Shown in pieces: positions 24,485 to 32,845 of a stretch of DNA of 42,308 bases. The position numbers and the translations under genes were made by a program. This DNA is from Beggiatoa sp. (GTDB lineage Bacteria > Pseudomonadota > Gammaproteobacteria > Beggiatoales > Beggiatoaceae). The notes beneath the pieces were generated by a model. It ran no database searches. It worked only from the letters and a program-made list of their open reading frames with translations, and was not told the origin of the DNA. Position 1 is the first letter of the stretch, and every line of letters starts with the position of its first letter. The stretch is taken from NCBI GenBank assembly GCA_003245895.1, contig QKBZ01000298.1, positions 1 to 42,308 on the forward strand. The letters run 5' to 3'.

Positions 24485-25861
24485 ATGAAAATTATTATTT
24501 TAGGAGCAGGGCAAGTTGGTAGCTCACTGGCTAGCAATTTATCTGTTGAAGCCAATGACATCACCGTCATCGACCAAGATGTCGATTTATTGCAATCGCT
24601 GCAAGATCATTTGGACTTGCAAACCGTAGTCGGTCACGCCGCCCATCCTAACGTGTTGCGCAAAGCAGGGGCGGAAGATGCTGACATGATCATCGCCGTG
24701 ACCAATAGCGATGAAACCAACATGGTGGCCTGCCAAATCGCACACACGCTATACCAAACGCCGACTAAAATTGCACGGGTGCGCGAAGCCAACTATCTCA
24801 TTCACCGCGAAATTTTTGCCCCTGGCGCGTTGGCGATTGACATGATCATCAGTCCTGAACAGTTGGTGACGCATTATATTCAACGCTTGATTAATTACCC
24901 TGACGCGCTGCAAGTATTGGATTTCGCGGAAGGCAAAGTGCAGTTAGTCGCGGTGAAAGCCTTTTACGGCGGGCCATTAATCGGTCATGCACTGCGCACC
25001 ATAGAAGATTACATCCCCGGCGTAGAAACCCGCATCGCGGCCTTATTCAGACGCGGTAAAGCGATTATTCCTGAAGGCGATACCGTGATCGAAGCGGATG
25101 ACGAGGTATTCTTTATCGCTGCGACTAAGGATATTCGCACCGTGATGTCTGCCTTACGCGAGCTAGATCGCCCCATTAAACGCATTATGATTGCAGGTGG
25201 TGGTAATATCGGCATGCGTTTAGCAGAAACTTTAGAAAAGAAAAAATATCAGGTTAAATTAATCGAATACCGCCGCCACCGTACTGAAGAAATTTCCGAA
25301 TTTTTACATAAAACCATTATCTTACAAGGCAGTGCTGCGGACGAAGATTTATTACGCGAAGAAAATGTTGAAGAAACCGATATTTTCTGCGCCGTGACCA
25401 ATGATGATCAAATCAACATTTTGTCTGCCATGTTAGCGAAACGCATGGGGGCGCGTAAGGTGATGGCTTTGATCAACCGTGCCGCCTATGTGGATTTAGT
25501 GCAAAGTAGCACCATCGACATTGCGATTTCGCCACAACAAGCCACTATTGGTACTTTGCTTGCCCATGTGCGGCGGGGCGATGTAGTGGTGGTGCATTCC
25601 TTACGACGGGGTGCAGCGGAGGCGATTGAGGCGATTGCACACGGTGATAAACGTTCTTCCAAAGTTGTTGGGCGGCGTATTGATCAAATTCGCCTCCCCC
25701 CTGGCACGACCATTGGTGCAGTTGTGCGCGGTGATATGGTGTTAATGGCGCATCATGACACGGTGATTGAAGCCGAAGACCATGTGATTTTATTCCTTGT
25801 TGATAAACGCCGTATCAATGCAGTTGAGCGTTTATTCCAAGTCGGTGTAACCTTTTTATAA
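24485..25861 (+). CDS. trkA: Trk potassium uptake regulatory subunit TrkA
   Basis: TrkA is the cytoplasmic NAD(H)-binding ring that gates the TrkH/TrkG potassium channel. The 458-residue protein is the usual tandem duplication. The first Rossmann domain opens [16 protein letters not shown] and the second, [15 protein letters not shown], begins near residue 236. Each is followed by a TrkA-C domain, the last ending [18 protein letters not shown]. No channel gene is nearby. Placement behind rsmB-ntrYX is common in related bacteria. The ribosome-binding site is weak. The upstream inverted-repeat element probably separates its transcription from ntrX. Confidence 0.95.
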
Positions 25862-27121: not shown

Positions 27122-28222
27122 ATGAGCCGCCGTATCGGCACATCCATTTTGTTGTTTTGCTGCGCACTGTTGAGTGCTATTACTGCTCATGCTCAGCAAG
27201 CAGATCAGCAAACGCACTTTGAAACCAGCAAGCCGTATCAAGATAATCAGCAAATCACACAAACCTTGCAAATTACTGGCGCGGAAGAACTCACCGTGAC
27301 TGTGCAAGGGGTAACGGAAAAATGCTGTGATTATCTGCGGATTTTTGACAATGCTGGGCGGCAAGTGCGCGAATTTCGTGGCACGATTCGGGAGACATTT
27401 ACCGTCAAAGGCAATGCGATTAAAGTCTTTTTCTTTTCTGATGGGCGTACCACTGATCAAGGGGTGATAGTTGATATTGCTGAACGCTCGCTGGCGAGTA
27501 TTTTTCAACAACTGAAAGCAGATTTGCTCAGTGCCACCCGTATTATCATGGAAACCGGCACTCAGCCTGCATTTACAGAAATACAAAAGCAATTAAACAG
27601 CGTTAAAGCCTTATACACAGAGGCTAATCGCTCACAAGAAATCAATGTCATCATCATGCGCGTGACTTTGCAATTACAAGCCATTGCAAGGGTATATCGT
27701 GATATTGCCAGCAACCGCTTAACCTTGTTGCAGCAACATCAGCAGCAGTTTGAAAACATTGAAACCTTAAAAGAAGAGACGCAAAAGCGCATTCAGAAAT
27801 TAACGCAAAATAAGCAGCGTTATTTAAACCTATTCACCGAAACGCAACAAAAAATTAGCAGCGGTGTGGGTGATGTGGAAAAACAAAAATTACAGTTTTC
27901 GCTAGAAGGCTATAAAAACATCGCGCAGTCCATGCACGTACAGCAAAGCATTTGGGAAAGTTTCTACCGTGCGCAAGTTGAACTAGAAACCGCCTTAAAA
28001 GCCCATTCGCGCAAAATCGAGGTGTTACTCTATTTATTAGATATTAACGCTAAAATTTACGAACAAGCCGCTAACACTGCTTCATTGCGTCAAAGCACCA
28101 TGATCAATTTAAACGACATGATTAATTTAGAAGAATTCCGGCGCGTGATGAAAGACATTGCAGACAGTGAGCAAGTGTTGCAAGACTGGCTTGCTCGCAT
28201 TGAACAAACGAATTTTAAATAG
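27122..28222 (+). CDS. Exported protein with CUB-like domain and coiled coil
   Basis: I do not recognise this 366-residue protein as a named family. It has a signal peptide (residues 1-24, LLFCCALLSAITAHA-QQ). A beta-rich domain follows (about 40-120) with CCDYLRIFDNAGRQVREFRG and IKVFFFSDGRTTDQGVIVDI, which looks like a CUB fold (DYLxIYD ... FxSD ... GF). The remainder (about 125-366) is almost entirely helical with heptad character, for example LLQQHQQQFENIETLKEETQ, suggesting a long periplasmic coiled coil. AGGAG lies 11 bases upstream. The next gene, a membrane-anchored OmpA-domain protein, starts nine bases after its stop, so the two probably work together in the envelope. Confidence 0.75.
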   Translation: MSRRIGTSILLFCCALLSAITAHAQQADQQTHFETSKPYQDNQQITQTLQITGAEELTVTVQGVTEKCCDYLRIFDNAGRQVREFRGTIRETFTVKGNAIKVFFFSDGRTTDQGVIVDIAERSLASIFQQLKADLLSATRIIMETGTQPAFTEIQKQLNSVKALYTEANRSQEINVIIMRVTLQLQAIARVYRDIASNRLTLLQQHQQQFENIETLKEETQKRIQKLTQNKQRYLNLFTETQQKISSGVGDVEKQKLQFSLEGYKNIAQSMHVQQSIWESFYRAQVELETALKAHSRKIEVLLYLLDINAKIYEQAANTASLRQSTMINLNDMINLEEFRRVMKDIADSEQVLQDWLARIEQTNFK

Positions 28223-28231
28223 GTGTTCACT

Positions 28232-29443
28232 ATGGGCGGTCGGATACCCATTATGGTGGGGTTTGCGCTGATTATTTTCTCCATCAGCTTAGTGGTCTAT
28301 TGGCTATTAACAGGCAGTATCTTCGGCTTTTTTTCCAGCAAACCCGCTACGCCACAACCCGACACGCCACAAGCGGTTGCGACTAGCATGTCCTTAAGCT
28401 CGGGTACAGGTGAGCAGTTAACCACGCAACCTCAACAACAGCCACCACCCGTTGCTACCACTTCACTGCCCACCGTAACAGCGACACCTACACCGTTAAA
28501 CGTAACGCCAAAACCTGCTGCGCCGCCACCACCGCCGCCACCTGATGTGTTATGGAGTCGGCTCAACGAGCAAATTTATACTTTAGAAGATGCGCGGAAA
28601 ACTTTGGTCAACACTGTTGTGGAACGTTTGCCAGAAGAACAAAAGCAGCAACTGAAAACGGAAAAATTACCGAATTTAACCACAGAAAATACGGCTACCA
28701 CACTGGCGGCTACAACGAACAATACGCGCACGACAGCGACTGCCAAAACGCCAGAACCTGCACCGGAAAATACAATTTTGCAAGCGGTAACGTGGCAGCA
28801 AATGACACAGCAAATGATGGAGTTAGAGCAAAGCCGCCAACGCTTAATCAATGCAGTAGCTAAACAAGTCACCGCACTTAACCCTGACACAGTGCCGATT
28901 CAGCCGCTGACTTTTGAAACCGAAACCCAAACGACTACAGCCGACATGCCATTGACTGCGGCGGCGGAGACCGTGCAACCCTTATCAGCATTGAGTTTAT
29001 CTACCGGTAGTGGTGAGTTGTTAGACACTTATCAGTTACGCCCAGCGGATACGAATAATTTATTAAATAGTCGCACCAGCAGCTTAGGGTATGTGTTTAT
29101 TCTCAGTGATTTAGTGTTTGAAACGGATCAAGACCAATTGCAAGCAGGCACTTTGTATATGTTAGACCGCTTGGCAAAAGCCTTAAACGCGCTGCCGCAA
29201 CAAGATATTTTAATTGAAGGTCACACGGATGATCGCGGTAACTCTGACTATAACTTGCAGTTATCACAACGCCGCGCTGCTGCTGTCAAACAAGCCTTGT
29301 TAACACGCGGTGTGTCAGAGGCACGCATACAGGCGCGTGGTTATGGTGAGTTATTGCCGATTGCAGATAATCACAGCGAGGCGGGACGACTGAAAAACCG
29401 GCGGGTCGAGATCACCTTATTAACCACACCGTTAACAGATTGA
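28232..29443 (+). CDS. Inner-membrane-anchored OmpA-like peptidoglycan-binding protein
   Basis: This 403-residue protein has one N-terminal helix (about 7-26, IMVGFALIIFSISLVVYWLL). A Pro/Thr/Gln-rich linker with a run of seven prolines follows, then two similar helical segments (106-133 and 186-213), and an OmpA C-terminal domain (about 288-396). The OmpA signature is complete: IEGHTDDRGNSDYN, LSQRRAAAVKQAL, ARGYGELLPIADN, GRLKNRRVEI. Such domains bind peptidoglycan non-covalently, so the protein should span from inner membrane to wall, as in MotB-like or T6SS-like anchors, but no partner channel is present. I chose ATG 28232; AGG at 28221-28223 overlaps the previous stop. Confidence 0.85.
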   Translation: MGGRIPIMVGFALIIFSISLVVYWLLTGSIFGFFSSKPATPQPDTPQAVATSMSLSSGTGEQLTTQPQQQPPPVATTSLPTVTATPTPLNVTPKPAAPPPPPPPDVLWSRLNEQIYTLEDARKTLVNTVVERLPEEQKQQLKTEKLPNLTTENTATTLAATTNNTRTTATAKTPEPAPENTILQAVTWQQMTQQMMELEQSRQRLINAVAKQVTALNPDTVPIQPLTFETETQTTTADMPLTAAAETVQPLSALSLSTGSGELLDTYQLRPADTNNLLNSRTSSLGYVFILSDLVFETDQDQLQAGTLYMLDRLAKALNALPQQDILIEGHTDDRGNSDYNLQLSQRRAAAVKQALLTRGVSEARIQARGYGELLPIADNHSEAGRLKNRRVEITLLTTPLTD

Positions 29444-30211: not shown

Positions 30212-30823
30212 TTAAAAAAGTTTGAGATACCCATTAGTTGCTGGATAACTATAATAAAAAACAGCATTGTCTCTAAATAATGAAAATCGTTGTATACCTT
30301 CATATGAATAAAAAATAAAATTAATAAAAGTACCGTCTGAGCCGCAATGAAGTAAATTATCTTCACACTTAATGGGCGTTTCTAGTCCTGATGGATATGT
30401 ACTAGTGTTATCAGAAGCACGTAAAGATGCCGGTAATAAGGGATTTAGATAACCGCTATAGTTATAAGAACCAAGTCCTTGATCAATTGTAGTTATTTTT
30501 CCATAAAAGATTTTATCTGGGGCTGATAACTTTATGTTTTGCTCTGCTTCTTCTTTAGTAATATAGTCAATTGATGATAAAAGAGATAAATCTTCAGTTA
30601 AATCAATGATGGTAATTATATCATCATTAATATGAATGGAAAGTTTCCAAGATGGATTTGGAAATAAACCGTCTGTTGCATAAATTCCTGAAAGTGACTC
30701 AAGAGAAACTTGCTCTAAGTCAGGTATTTTTTGTATAGCATCTTCAGCATTAGCTAATAATGGTATTGTTATAACTGCTATAAGACCTAACTGTAGGTGT
30801 CTTATCTTTATAAAAGAAATCAT
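30212..30823 (-). CDS. Secreted protein of unknown function
   Basis: This orphan is 203 residues long. The signal peptide is clear if translation starts at ATG 30823: MISFIKIRHLQLGLIAVITI then PLLANA-ED. The mature part has segments such as LESLSGIYATDGLFPNPSW and LSIHINDDIITIIDL, beta-rich and with a Cys pair (IKCEDNLLHCG), so it may be a small periplasmic beta protein. I recognise no family. An earlier in-frame ATG at 30874 would place a charged extension before the signal and would run through one arm of a 17-bp inverted repeat, so the shorter form is preferred. A+T content is much higher than in neighbouring housekeeping genes. Confidence 0.6.
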   Translation of the reverse strand: MISFIKIRHLQLGLIAVITIPLLANAEDAIQKIPDLEQVSLESLSGIYATDGLFPNPSWKLSIHINDDIITIIDLTEDLSLLSSIDYITKEEAEQNIKLSAPDKIFYGKITTIDQGLGSYNYSGYLNPLLPASLRASDNTSTYPSGLETPIKCEDNLLHCGSDGTFINFIFYSYEGIQRFSLFRDNAVFYYSYPATNGYLKLF

Positions 30824-30844
30824 TTTATTTATCCATTGCTCACT

Positions 30845-30949
30845 AGCAATTCTCAATTTAAATTGGAAGGACATTCTATATTAATTTTAACAATAATTGT
30901 GCTTATCACATAACCATTCTAGCTGTATGGTCTTAAATTGAGAATTGCT
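30845..30949. repeat. 17-bp inverted repeat with embedded 12-bp palindrome
   Basis: AGCAATTCTCAATTTAA (30845-30861) and TTAAATTGAGAATTGCT (30933-30949) are exact complements 71 bases apart. The left arm overlaps a perfect palindrome CAATTTAAATTG (30854-30865). It occupies the divergent region between the secreted orphan and the methyltransferase gene. Confidence 0.75.
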
Positions 30950-31035: not shown

Positions 31036-32127
31036 ATGAGCGTTATGCAACTTAATTGCACTTCTTTGGATAATTACACTCCCTCTGTTGTCGAACTGTT
31101 TGCCGGTGCTGGTGGGCTTGCGCTTGGTTTGGAGTTGGCAGGATTTGAGACTAAAGTGGTGCTGGAAAACAATAAATGGGCTTGTGCAACTTTAAGAAAA
31201 AATCGGCCTGATTGGCATATTATCGAAGATGATGTGATTAAAATTGCTGACGCGGGTATTGCTAACTATATGCAATTAGATCAGCCAGTTGATTTGTTAT
31301 CAGGTGGCTATCCTTGCCAAGCGTTTAGTTATGCAGGCAAAAAATTAGGTTTAGAAGATACGAGAGGAACCTTGTTTTATAGCTTTGCTGAAATTTTAAA
31401 AGAATTACAGCCAAAAATGTTTTTAGCGGAAAATGTGAAAGGCTTAGTCAGTCATGATAAAGGCAGAACGCTAAAAACCATGCTAGATGTATTTGAGGAA
31501 GTGGGCTATCAGGTTAATTATAAAATTTTAAATGCACTTGATTATGAAGTTGCTCAGAAACGAGAGCGTATTGTGATTATTGGGGTGAGAAATGATATTC
31601 GCGCTAAAGTTGGTTTTGACTACACCTTTCCTAAACCCTTTAATCAAAAATTGACCTTACGTGATATTTTACAGAATGTGCCAACCTCATTAGGTGCAAA
31701 TTATAACGATAAGAAAAAAGCTATTTTTGCTTTAGTCCCTCAAGGCGGATGTTGGCGTGATTTGCCAGATGATGTGGCGCGAGAATATTTAGCAGGCAGT
31801 TATCATTTAGGCGGAGGTAAAACCGGTATTGCACGTCGCATGTCGTGGGATGAAGCAGGGTTAACTGTATTATGCTCACCCGCACAAAAGCAAACAGATC
31901 GTTGTCATCCTGATGAGTTAAGACCCTTTACCGTGCGCGAAAATGCCAGAATTCAATCTTTTCCAGATAGTTGGGAGTTTGTTGGCTCAGTGGCAGAGCA
32001 ATATAAACAAATCGGTAATGCGGTGCCGGTTAATTTAGCAAAACATATTGGCTTATCCATTAAACGATATTTAGCAGGAATACAGGCTGTTAGCAATGAA
32101 CGATTACAAACTGAGTTTCATTTCTAA
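31036..32127 (+). CDS. Type II DNA (cytosine-5) methyltransferase
   Basis: This 363-residue enzyme methylates C5 of cytosine within a specific site and protects host DNA from the partner endonuclease. All key motifs are in order: I (ELFAGAGGLALGLELAG), IV with the catalytic Cys (GGYPCQAFSYAG), VI (LAENVKGL), VIII (AQKRERIVIIGVR), IX (RPFTVRENARIQSFPD) and X (QIGNAVPVNLAKHIG). No N-terminal HTH is present. It overlaps the endonuclease gene by 32 bases. The genes are richer in A+T than those on either side, which suggests transfer. Confidence 0.93.
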   Translation: MSVMQLNCTSLDNYTPSVVELFAGAGGLALGLELAGFETKVVLENNKWACATLRKNRPDWHIIEDDVIKIADAGIANYMQLDQPVDLLSGGYPCQAFSYAGKKLGLEDTRGTLFYSFAEILKELQPKMFLAENVKGLVSHDKGRTLKTMLDVFEEVGYQVNYKILNALDYEVAQKRERIVIIGVRNDIRAKVGFDYTFPKPFNQKLTLRDILQNVPTSLGANYNDKKKAIFALVPQGGCWRDLPDDVAREYLAGSYHLGGGKTGIARRMSWDEAGLTVLCSPAQKQTDRCHPDELRPFTVRENARIQSFPDSWEFVGSVAEQYKQIGNAVPVNLAKHIGLSIKRYLAGIQAVSNERLQTEFHF

Positions 32128-32845
32128 TGAAAATTTATTCAAACATGTGCAAGATACCGTTTTAAAATATCGTTTCAAGATAAACTTAAAAGATTTTAAA
32201 CAAAATTTAGTTGACCCCATTAAATTAACGTTTGATCACCTTGTTTACCAAAAGACGCTAGATGTTTTGATTAATGATGAAATCATGCGTCAGATTGATA
32301 GATCAAATACCAACCATATCGGCTATTTTCATCAAAATATTTTTAATTATATAGGCGATGGCTGGTATGTGCCTGCTAAGGGTTTTGATATTGTTAACAA
32401 TCACTTAAATATTTTTGTGGAGATGAAGAATAAACATAACACAATGAATTCTTCTTCATCGCAAAAAACTTATATGAGAATGTTGCATGCAATTAATCAA
32501 GCTCCATCAGCACAGTGCTTTCTGGTCGAAGTGATTGCTAAAAATAGTCAAAATATTCCGTGGTCAGTTTCTTTAGACGGAGAATCAATCTCAGATGATC
32601 GCATTCGTCGTGTGTCTATCGATCAGTTTTATCATTTTGTAACAGGCGAGCATACTGCTTTTCAACAACTTTGTGCAGTGTTACCGATTGTCATTAAAGA
32701 TGTCGTCAACGCAATTGGACAAGAACTGATGCAGAGTTCTGTGTTGCAAGAATTAGCGGCGAGTTCGCCCAATATTTTACAAAGCCTCTACTTATTTTCT
32801 TTTGCAGAATATGAAGGTTTTGAACACTTTCAGCTTGCAGAATAA
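32096..32845 (+). CDS. Type II restriction endonuclease, Eco47II-like
   Basis: This 249-residue protein, encoded on the tail of the methyltransferase gene, is the natural cognate nuclease. The central segment GFDIVNNHLNIFVEMKNKHN followed by TMNSSSSQKTY resembles the Eco47II/SinI/Sau96I family, whose members cut GGNCC or GGWCC. Within it D-x(n)-E-x-K (FDIV...VEMKNK) could form the catalytic PD-(D/E)xK-type site. Family assignment is from memory, so recognition of GGNCC is an inference. The region is strongly A+T-rich; only 13 of 60 bases at 32161-32220 are G or C. Confidence 0.82.
   Translation: MNDYKLSFISNENLFKHVQDTVLKYRFKINLKDFKQNLVDPIKLTFDHLVYQKTLDVLINDEIMRQIDRSNTNHIGYFHQNIFNYIGDGWYVPAKGFDIVNNHLNIFVEMKNKHNTMNSSSSQKTYMRMLHAINQAPSAQCFLVEVIAKNSQNIPWSVSLDGESISDDRIRRVSIDQFYHFVTGEHTAFQQLCAVLPIVIKDVVNAIGQELMQSSVLQELAASSPNILQSLYLFSFAEYEGFEHFQLAE

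Follow-up and report, generated by a model that had tools for sequence, protein, structure and literature searches.

A conserved pair of an exported coiled-coil protein and a W-box membrane protein as a candidate envelope tether in Beggiatoaceae

Background

Two neighbouring genes on a contig of Beggiatoa sp. raise the question of whether an exported CUB-like/coiled-coil protein (A) and a membrane protein with an OmpA domain (B) belong together as one envelope system and, if so, which of their parts form its core. The original prediction saw in them a coupled gene pair resembling a trans-envelope scaffold or anchor. If such a tether is real, it would represent an undescribed module of inner membrane, wall and coiled coil with a short testable binding motif (hereafter the W-box), a bacterial use of the CUB fold, which is known mainly from animals, and a compact candidate gene pair for the envelope genetics of the giant filamentous sulfur bacteria.

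Methods

The sequence originates from Beggiatoa sp. (GCA_003245895.1, contig QKBZ01000298.1, positions 1 to 42,308, forward strand), and the whole 42,308-nt stretch that was analysed is referred to as the window. The gene pair studied consists of A and B (27122-29443, + strand). The comparison set comprised 43 genomes of the family Beggiatoaceae together with samples of the class (369 genomes) and phylum (399 genomes). Orthologues of A were located by single-protein and profile searches, the query for the profile scan of genome contigs being a 10-row alignment of A, and a W-box profile was run against all 43 Beggiatoaceae genomes. A alone was modelled with AF2 from a 24-sequence alignment, while A together with the W-box region (the joint model) was built on a 20-row alignment of loci that have A and B in the same frame. 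These loci replaced joint alignments in which B had rows of its own, as MAFFT had placed the W-boxes over A there. The stop between the in-frame A and B is read as a residue in the joint model, which is a modelling device and implies no readthrough.

Domain architecture of the two proteins

Gene A (27122..28222, + strand) encodes 366 aa and has orthologues in 30/43 family genomes at 50% to 19% identity, and is thus a real gene rather than a chance ORF. Its sequence starts with a Sec-type signal peptide (residues 1-24, ending in AHA before QQ; 27122..27193, + strand), which appears as a low-confidence N-terminal helix in the AF2 model of A (mean pLDDT 86, 24 sequences). An all-beta domain is predicted at residues 32-121 (27215..27484, + strand; pLDDT >90, with the strands at 91-96), followed by a helical coiled-coil domain at residues 124-362 (27491..28207, + strand) with AF2 helices at 124-144, 148-170, 174-196, 199-246, 251-323, and 336-362. 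Y192, W278, and Y313 are invariant columns of this coiled coil in the family alignment.

When the all-beta domain was compared with the PDB by Foldseek, CUB domains ranked first (PCPE-1, Kremen, C1r CUB2, neuropilin, MASP-1), the top matches being mostly CUB with target-normalised TM up to 0.64-0.68. Both Pfam CUB models stayed under their gathering scores for A, i.e., CUB_M02D8_5_3rd (E 2.8e-6, 27.7 bits vs. 32) and CUB (E 0.07, 13.8 bits vs. 21.4), and matched 8-9/24 members of the A family. The two disulfides of canonical CUBs are absent from the sequence and family alignment of the domain, whose only cysteines, C68 and C69, are not conserved across the family. Partial conservation was found for E66 (14/24), D70 (21/24), and D107 (18/24), whose positions resemble those of the acidic residues in calcium-binding CUB domains. 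The predicted CUB fold is sound at fold level, and we name the domain CUB-like, not CUB, because it stays below the Pfam gathering cut-off and the canonical cysteines are missing. Similar CUB-like domains were seen in large proteins from relatives, together with Calx-beta and WD40 repeats (L063:8750-18949), with WD40, PDZ, and caspase domains (L064:5127-10166), or with a CHAP domain (L062:8426-10279), and one relative of A apparently carries two tandem CUB-like domains ahead of the coiled coil (L103:7147-8619, genome G009).

Gene B (28232..29443, + strand) encodes a membrane protein that crosses the bilayer once and carries two W-boxes and an OmpA domain. A single TAG parts it from A in the same reading frame (28220-28232), immediately followed by a GTG (28223) from which B would count 406 aa. 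The ATG at 28232 is likelier to be the start than this in-frame alternative, since a probable ribosome-binding site (AGGTG, 28221..28225, + strand) lies 6 nt upstream and serves it better; as the AGGTG overlaps the stop codon of A, translation of the two genes is probably coupled. Hydropathy (2.48 from residue 8) points to a transmembrane segment at about residues 8-32 (GTG numbering; 28244..28318, + strand), and a Pro/Thr/Ser-rich linker (residues 41-108, 28343..28546, + strand; 56% P/S/T) is disordered in AF2. The OmpA-type peptidoglycan-binding domain (residues 299-393, 29117..29401, + strand) was matched by Pfam at E 8.1e-21 (74.6 bits vs. a cut-off of 27.2), with a whole-genome match at the same coordinates. 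It contains D336 and R351 at the positions where OmpA domains are expected to contact the diaminopimelate of peptidoglycan, and is a putative peptidoglycan binder.

The anatomy given in the original prediction is borne out. The signal peptide and the AF2 helices at 124-362 agree with an exported protein with a long coiled coil, the beta-sandwich and the Foldseek matches with a CUB-like domain in it, and hydropathy, linker composition and the Pfam match with a single-pass B whose linker is rich in Pro/Thr and whose OmpA domain is complete. From the proposed check of the CUB assignment by profile and structure, the structural part stood (a predicted beta-sandwich with pLDDT >90 and CUB domains first in Foldseek), but the Pfam scores remained sub-gathering.

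Beyond the features named there, B contains a further conserved segment, the W-box, a short heptad-patterned helix motif (W..L...L..LE..R) present in all B relatives in one to three copies per membrane protein. The W is found in 38/38 copies and the E in 37/38, and the hydrophobic residues are heptad-spaced. W-box 1 (WSRLNEQIYTLEDAR, residues 111-125, 28553..28597, + strand) lies in a helix predicted at 107-133 in the joint model (pLDDT about 74-88), and W-box 2 (WQQMTQQMMELEQSR, residues 191-205, 28793..28837, + strand) in a helix at 191-219 (pLDDT about 88-93). The helix around W278 of A was considered as another W-box, for which hhalign gave no support.

Distribution and co-occurrence

Single-protein and profile searches found A in 30/43 Beggiatoaceae genomes, the named family members being Thioploca, Halobeggiatoa, Marithrix, and Thiomargarita; several nearly complete genomes of the family lack it. 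Outside Beggiatoaceae, one genome of another gammaproteobacterial family (locus L083) carries the coiled-coil part of A only. There the W-box protein precedes the A homologue in reversed order, and neither a CUB nor an OmpA domain is present. No other A matches were obtained from the 369 class and 399 phylum genomes beyond two weak coiled-coil matches (G195 and G708), and the one in G195 is a chemotaxis-receptor-like coiled coil and probably due to chance. In the samples searched, the A and W-box families are confined to Beggiatoaceae and one other gammaproteobacterium.

The W-box profile was positive in 24/43 family genomes, namely 24/30 with A and 0/13 without it, so that every W-box genome has A (24/24; Fisher p 7e-7, uncorrected for the kinship of the genomes, which inflates the test). 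G006, the one apparent and weak exception with W-boxes but no A, was found by the A profile to carry a divergent A. Six A-bearing genomes gave no W-box profile match, and one of these (G784) has a single-box membrane protein adjoining A. The A and W-box genes are adjacent in about 15/25 family genomes with both, in otherwise varied flanks, while in 10/25 they are separated by a long distance or lie on different contigs, each among other genes. As the co-occurrence persists in these ten genomes, it is not a product of linkage alone, and the recurrent adjacency in varied flanks together with the reversed order in L083 supports a functional link. Linked, unlinked and OmpA-adjacent states are interspersed on the tree of A, as expected with a fluid arrangement and a persistent functional link.

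Within the window, the genes neighbouring A and B encode a TrkA-like protein, a nitronate monooxygenase, and a uracil-DNA glycosylase. The TrkA-like regulator of potassium uptake that is encoded upstream of A (24485-25861) also lies beside A at locus L039 and in no other relative, and since it is common to these two only, it probably reflects synteny by descent. Further downstream, a 220-aa protein with no convincing Pfam match is encoded on the minus strand (30212-30874), followed by a restriction-modification pair (31036-32845) of a C5 cytosine methyltransferase and an Eco47II-type endonuclease (Pfam E 1.6e-87 and 3.1e-83). In another genome (L096:1535-2993, G031), a W-box protein adjoins a second coiled-coil protein, which by eye resembles the C-terminal half of A, has a membrane segment and lacks a CUB domain; the two may form a paralogous pair.

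Neighbourhood maps of the relatives contained no consistently linked channel, secretion or motor gene, in agreement with what had been noted for this locus. The gene pair is coupled in the sense that its members always co-occur and adjoin in about 15/25 genomes, but the strict neighbourhood does not hold in the other 10. The CUB-OmpA pairing gives way to another core. The coiled coil is retained in relatives, as is, in nearly all cases, the membrane anchor with W-boxes, while CUB is sometimes missing, and OmpA is fused, separate or absent across loci. As the L083 pair also lacks both domains, the conserved core, as read from these comparisons, is the coiled coil of A with membrane-anchored W-boxes.

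OmpA as an accessory part

Four genomes (those of the window, L039, L049, and L050) carry OmpA and the W-boxes in one protein, and the four fused domains form one clade in the tree (support 96/98), which indicates a single origin of the fusion. In seven genomes (L040, L042, L044, L047, L051, L053, L091), OmpA is a protein of its own, mostly lipoprotein-like at the N-terminus, whose gene comes directly after the W-box gene, with a DUF4398 protein in between in L040, L042, and L051. Fusion in four genomes and immediate downstream position in seven is a Rosetta-stone pattern that links OmpA to the A/W-box system. Beside the W-box gene of L048, L052, L055, L058, and L104, no OmpA was seen. In the adjacent OmpA copies of L042, L091, and L053, canonical residues are no longer present, and the OmpA-like partners at L042:12759-13532 and L091:10393-11154 are without the usual GHTD motif, which suggests lost peptidoglycan binding. 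Since OmpA is missing at many W-box loci and these copies are degenerate, peptidoglycan binding is dispensable, and OmpA is, by sequence comparison, an accessory part of the pair that was added by one fusion in a subset.

A candidate trans-periplasmic tether and its alternatives

On balance, we lean towards A and B forming a trans-periplasmic tether in which the W-boxes are docked on the coiled coil of A. B would be anchored in the inner membrane via its N-terminal helix, and in the orientation we favour, its disordered Pro/Thr-rich strand would project into the periplasm and position the W-boxes there. The two W-box helices, which span about 3.5 heptads apiece and are hydrophobic at the a/d positions, would then dock on the antiparallel coiled coil of A. 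A would thereby be held near the wall, leaving its CUB module free to bind a protein or a glycan, perhaps in a calcium-dependent manner. The OmpA domain fused to B would grip peptidoglycan in the clade of the window, and elsewhere a neighbouring OmpA lipoprotein, or none, would take this place. By their heptad spacing, the W-boxes read as short coiled-coil strands, for which the coiled coil of A is the obvious partner. The joint AF2 model predicts a confident helix for each W-box between disordered linkers, and in it the pLDDT of A residues 141-180 is 86-96 compared with 73-76 for A alone, a rise that may stem from the different alignments (24 vs. 20 rows); the model suggests docking on A. The scaffold or anchor proposed originally gains support, as a candidate role, from the anatomy, the co-conservation of the pair and the recurrent OmpA partner.

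Alternatively, A could be a secreted CUB-headed coiled-coil adhesin or sheath protein, with B as a periplasmic escort or assembly factor and no permanent tether. We consider this rather unlikely: A itself lacks a membrane anchor and same-type CUB-like domains occur in the large multi-domain proteins of relatives described above, but no secretion gene is linked, and the fusion of OmpA to B suggests a static anchor. To a similar degree, we doubt that A and B are structural components of a machinery for gliding or filament integrity in the multicellular Beggiatoaceae, e.g., an anchor for a surface-exposed apparatus. The idea is attractive, and what speaks for it is the distribution of A and W-boxes, nearly limited to a family of sulfur bacteria that form filaments and glide. 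A 2026 review counts Beggiatoa and Thioploca among the gliders (PMC13104615) and, in the passages found, describes no mechanism for either; our literature searches gave no gene-level account of how giant filamentous sulfur bacteria glide. However, none of the loci has a linked motor, pilus or slime gene, the pair is missing from several nearly complete family genomes, a relative is present in one genome outside the family, and family restriction is no evidence of function. Slightly more speculative still is a lineage-specific trans-envelope machine, in which tandem W-box helices would clamp the CUB-headed coiled coil and relay force or position among the inner membrane, the wall, and the cell surface for gliding or filament integrity. 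Finally, that two unrelated envelope genes are neighbours by chance is very improbable. The ten or so OmpA matches found in a whole-genome search of Beggiatoa sp. (the one in B among them) and the unlinked genes of ten relatives would fit this reading, but it is contradicted by an adjacency that recurs across many genomes in varied flanks, also outside the family, and by strict co-occurrence even in unlinked genomes.

Comparison with known systems

The tether that we favour shares parts with several known systems. The CUB-like domain of A is a predicted beta-sandwich with a D-Y-L and S-D-x(6)-G signature like the CUB domains (PF00431/PF23062) of C1r, MASP-1, and neuropilin, but differs from them in its sub-gathering Pfam score, the lack of canonical disulfide cysteines, and in being present as a single copy attached to a bacterial coiled coil. 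The Tol-Pal system with CpoB has a similar layout of a single-pass inner-membrane protein, a periplasmic coiled coil, and an OmpA-type peptidoglycan binder, whereas A/B have no TolQ/R-like gene adjacent and OmpA is either missing or part of the inner-membrane protein. The 24 members of the A family gave no match to the CpoB or TolA-binding trimerisation families (E 0.1, among 25 of 28 families listed), and B had no Pfam match besides its OmpA domain. No TolQ/TolR or MotA genes lie beside A/B, and the four MotA/ExbB matches of the genome are on other contigs. With no adjacent Tol motor genes and no CpoB homology among the families listed, the pair is no member of Tol-Pal-CpoB, nor, with no adjacent MotA gene, is it a flagellar-type stator anchor. 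MotB/MotY-type wall anchors likewise combine a membrane helix, a linker, and an OmpA domain; B differs in having no adjacent MotA/ExbB and in possessing W-boxes and a co-conserved exported coiled-coil partner. OmpA-family lipoproteins with DUF4398 resemble the OmpA partners in the split loci L040, L042, and L051, which are accompanied by DUF4398, and the genome of the window has a similar OmpA protein elsewhere (L002); in B, by contrast, OmpA is fused to a W-box membrane protein, with neither DUF4398 nor a lipobox. Our literature searches returned nothing on the A/B pair. The pair is conserved and, as far as searched, stands as an undescribed candidate envelope tether.
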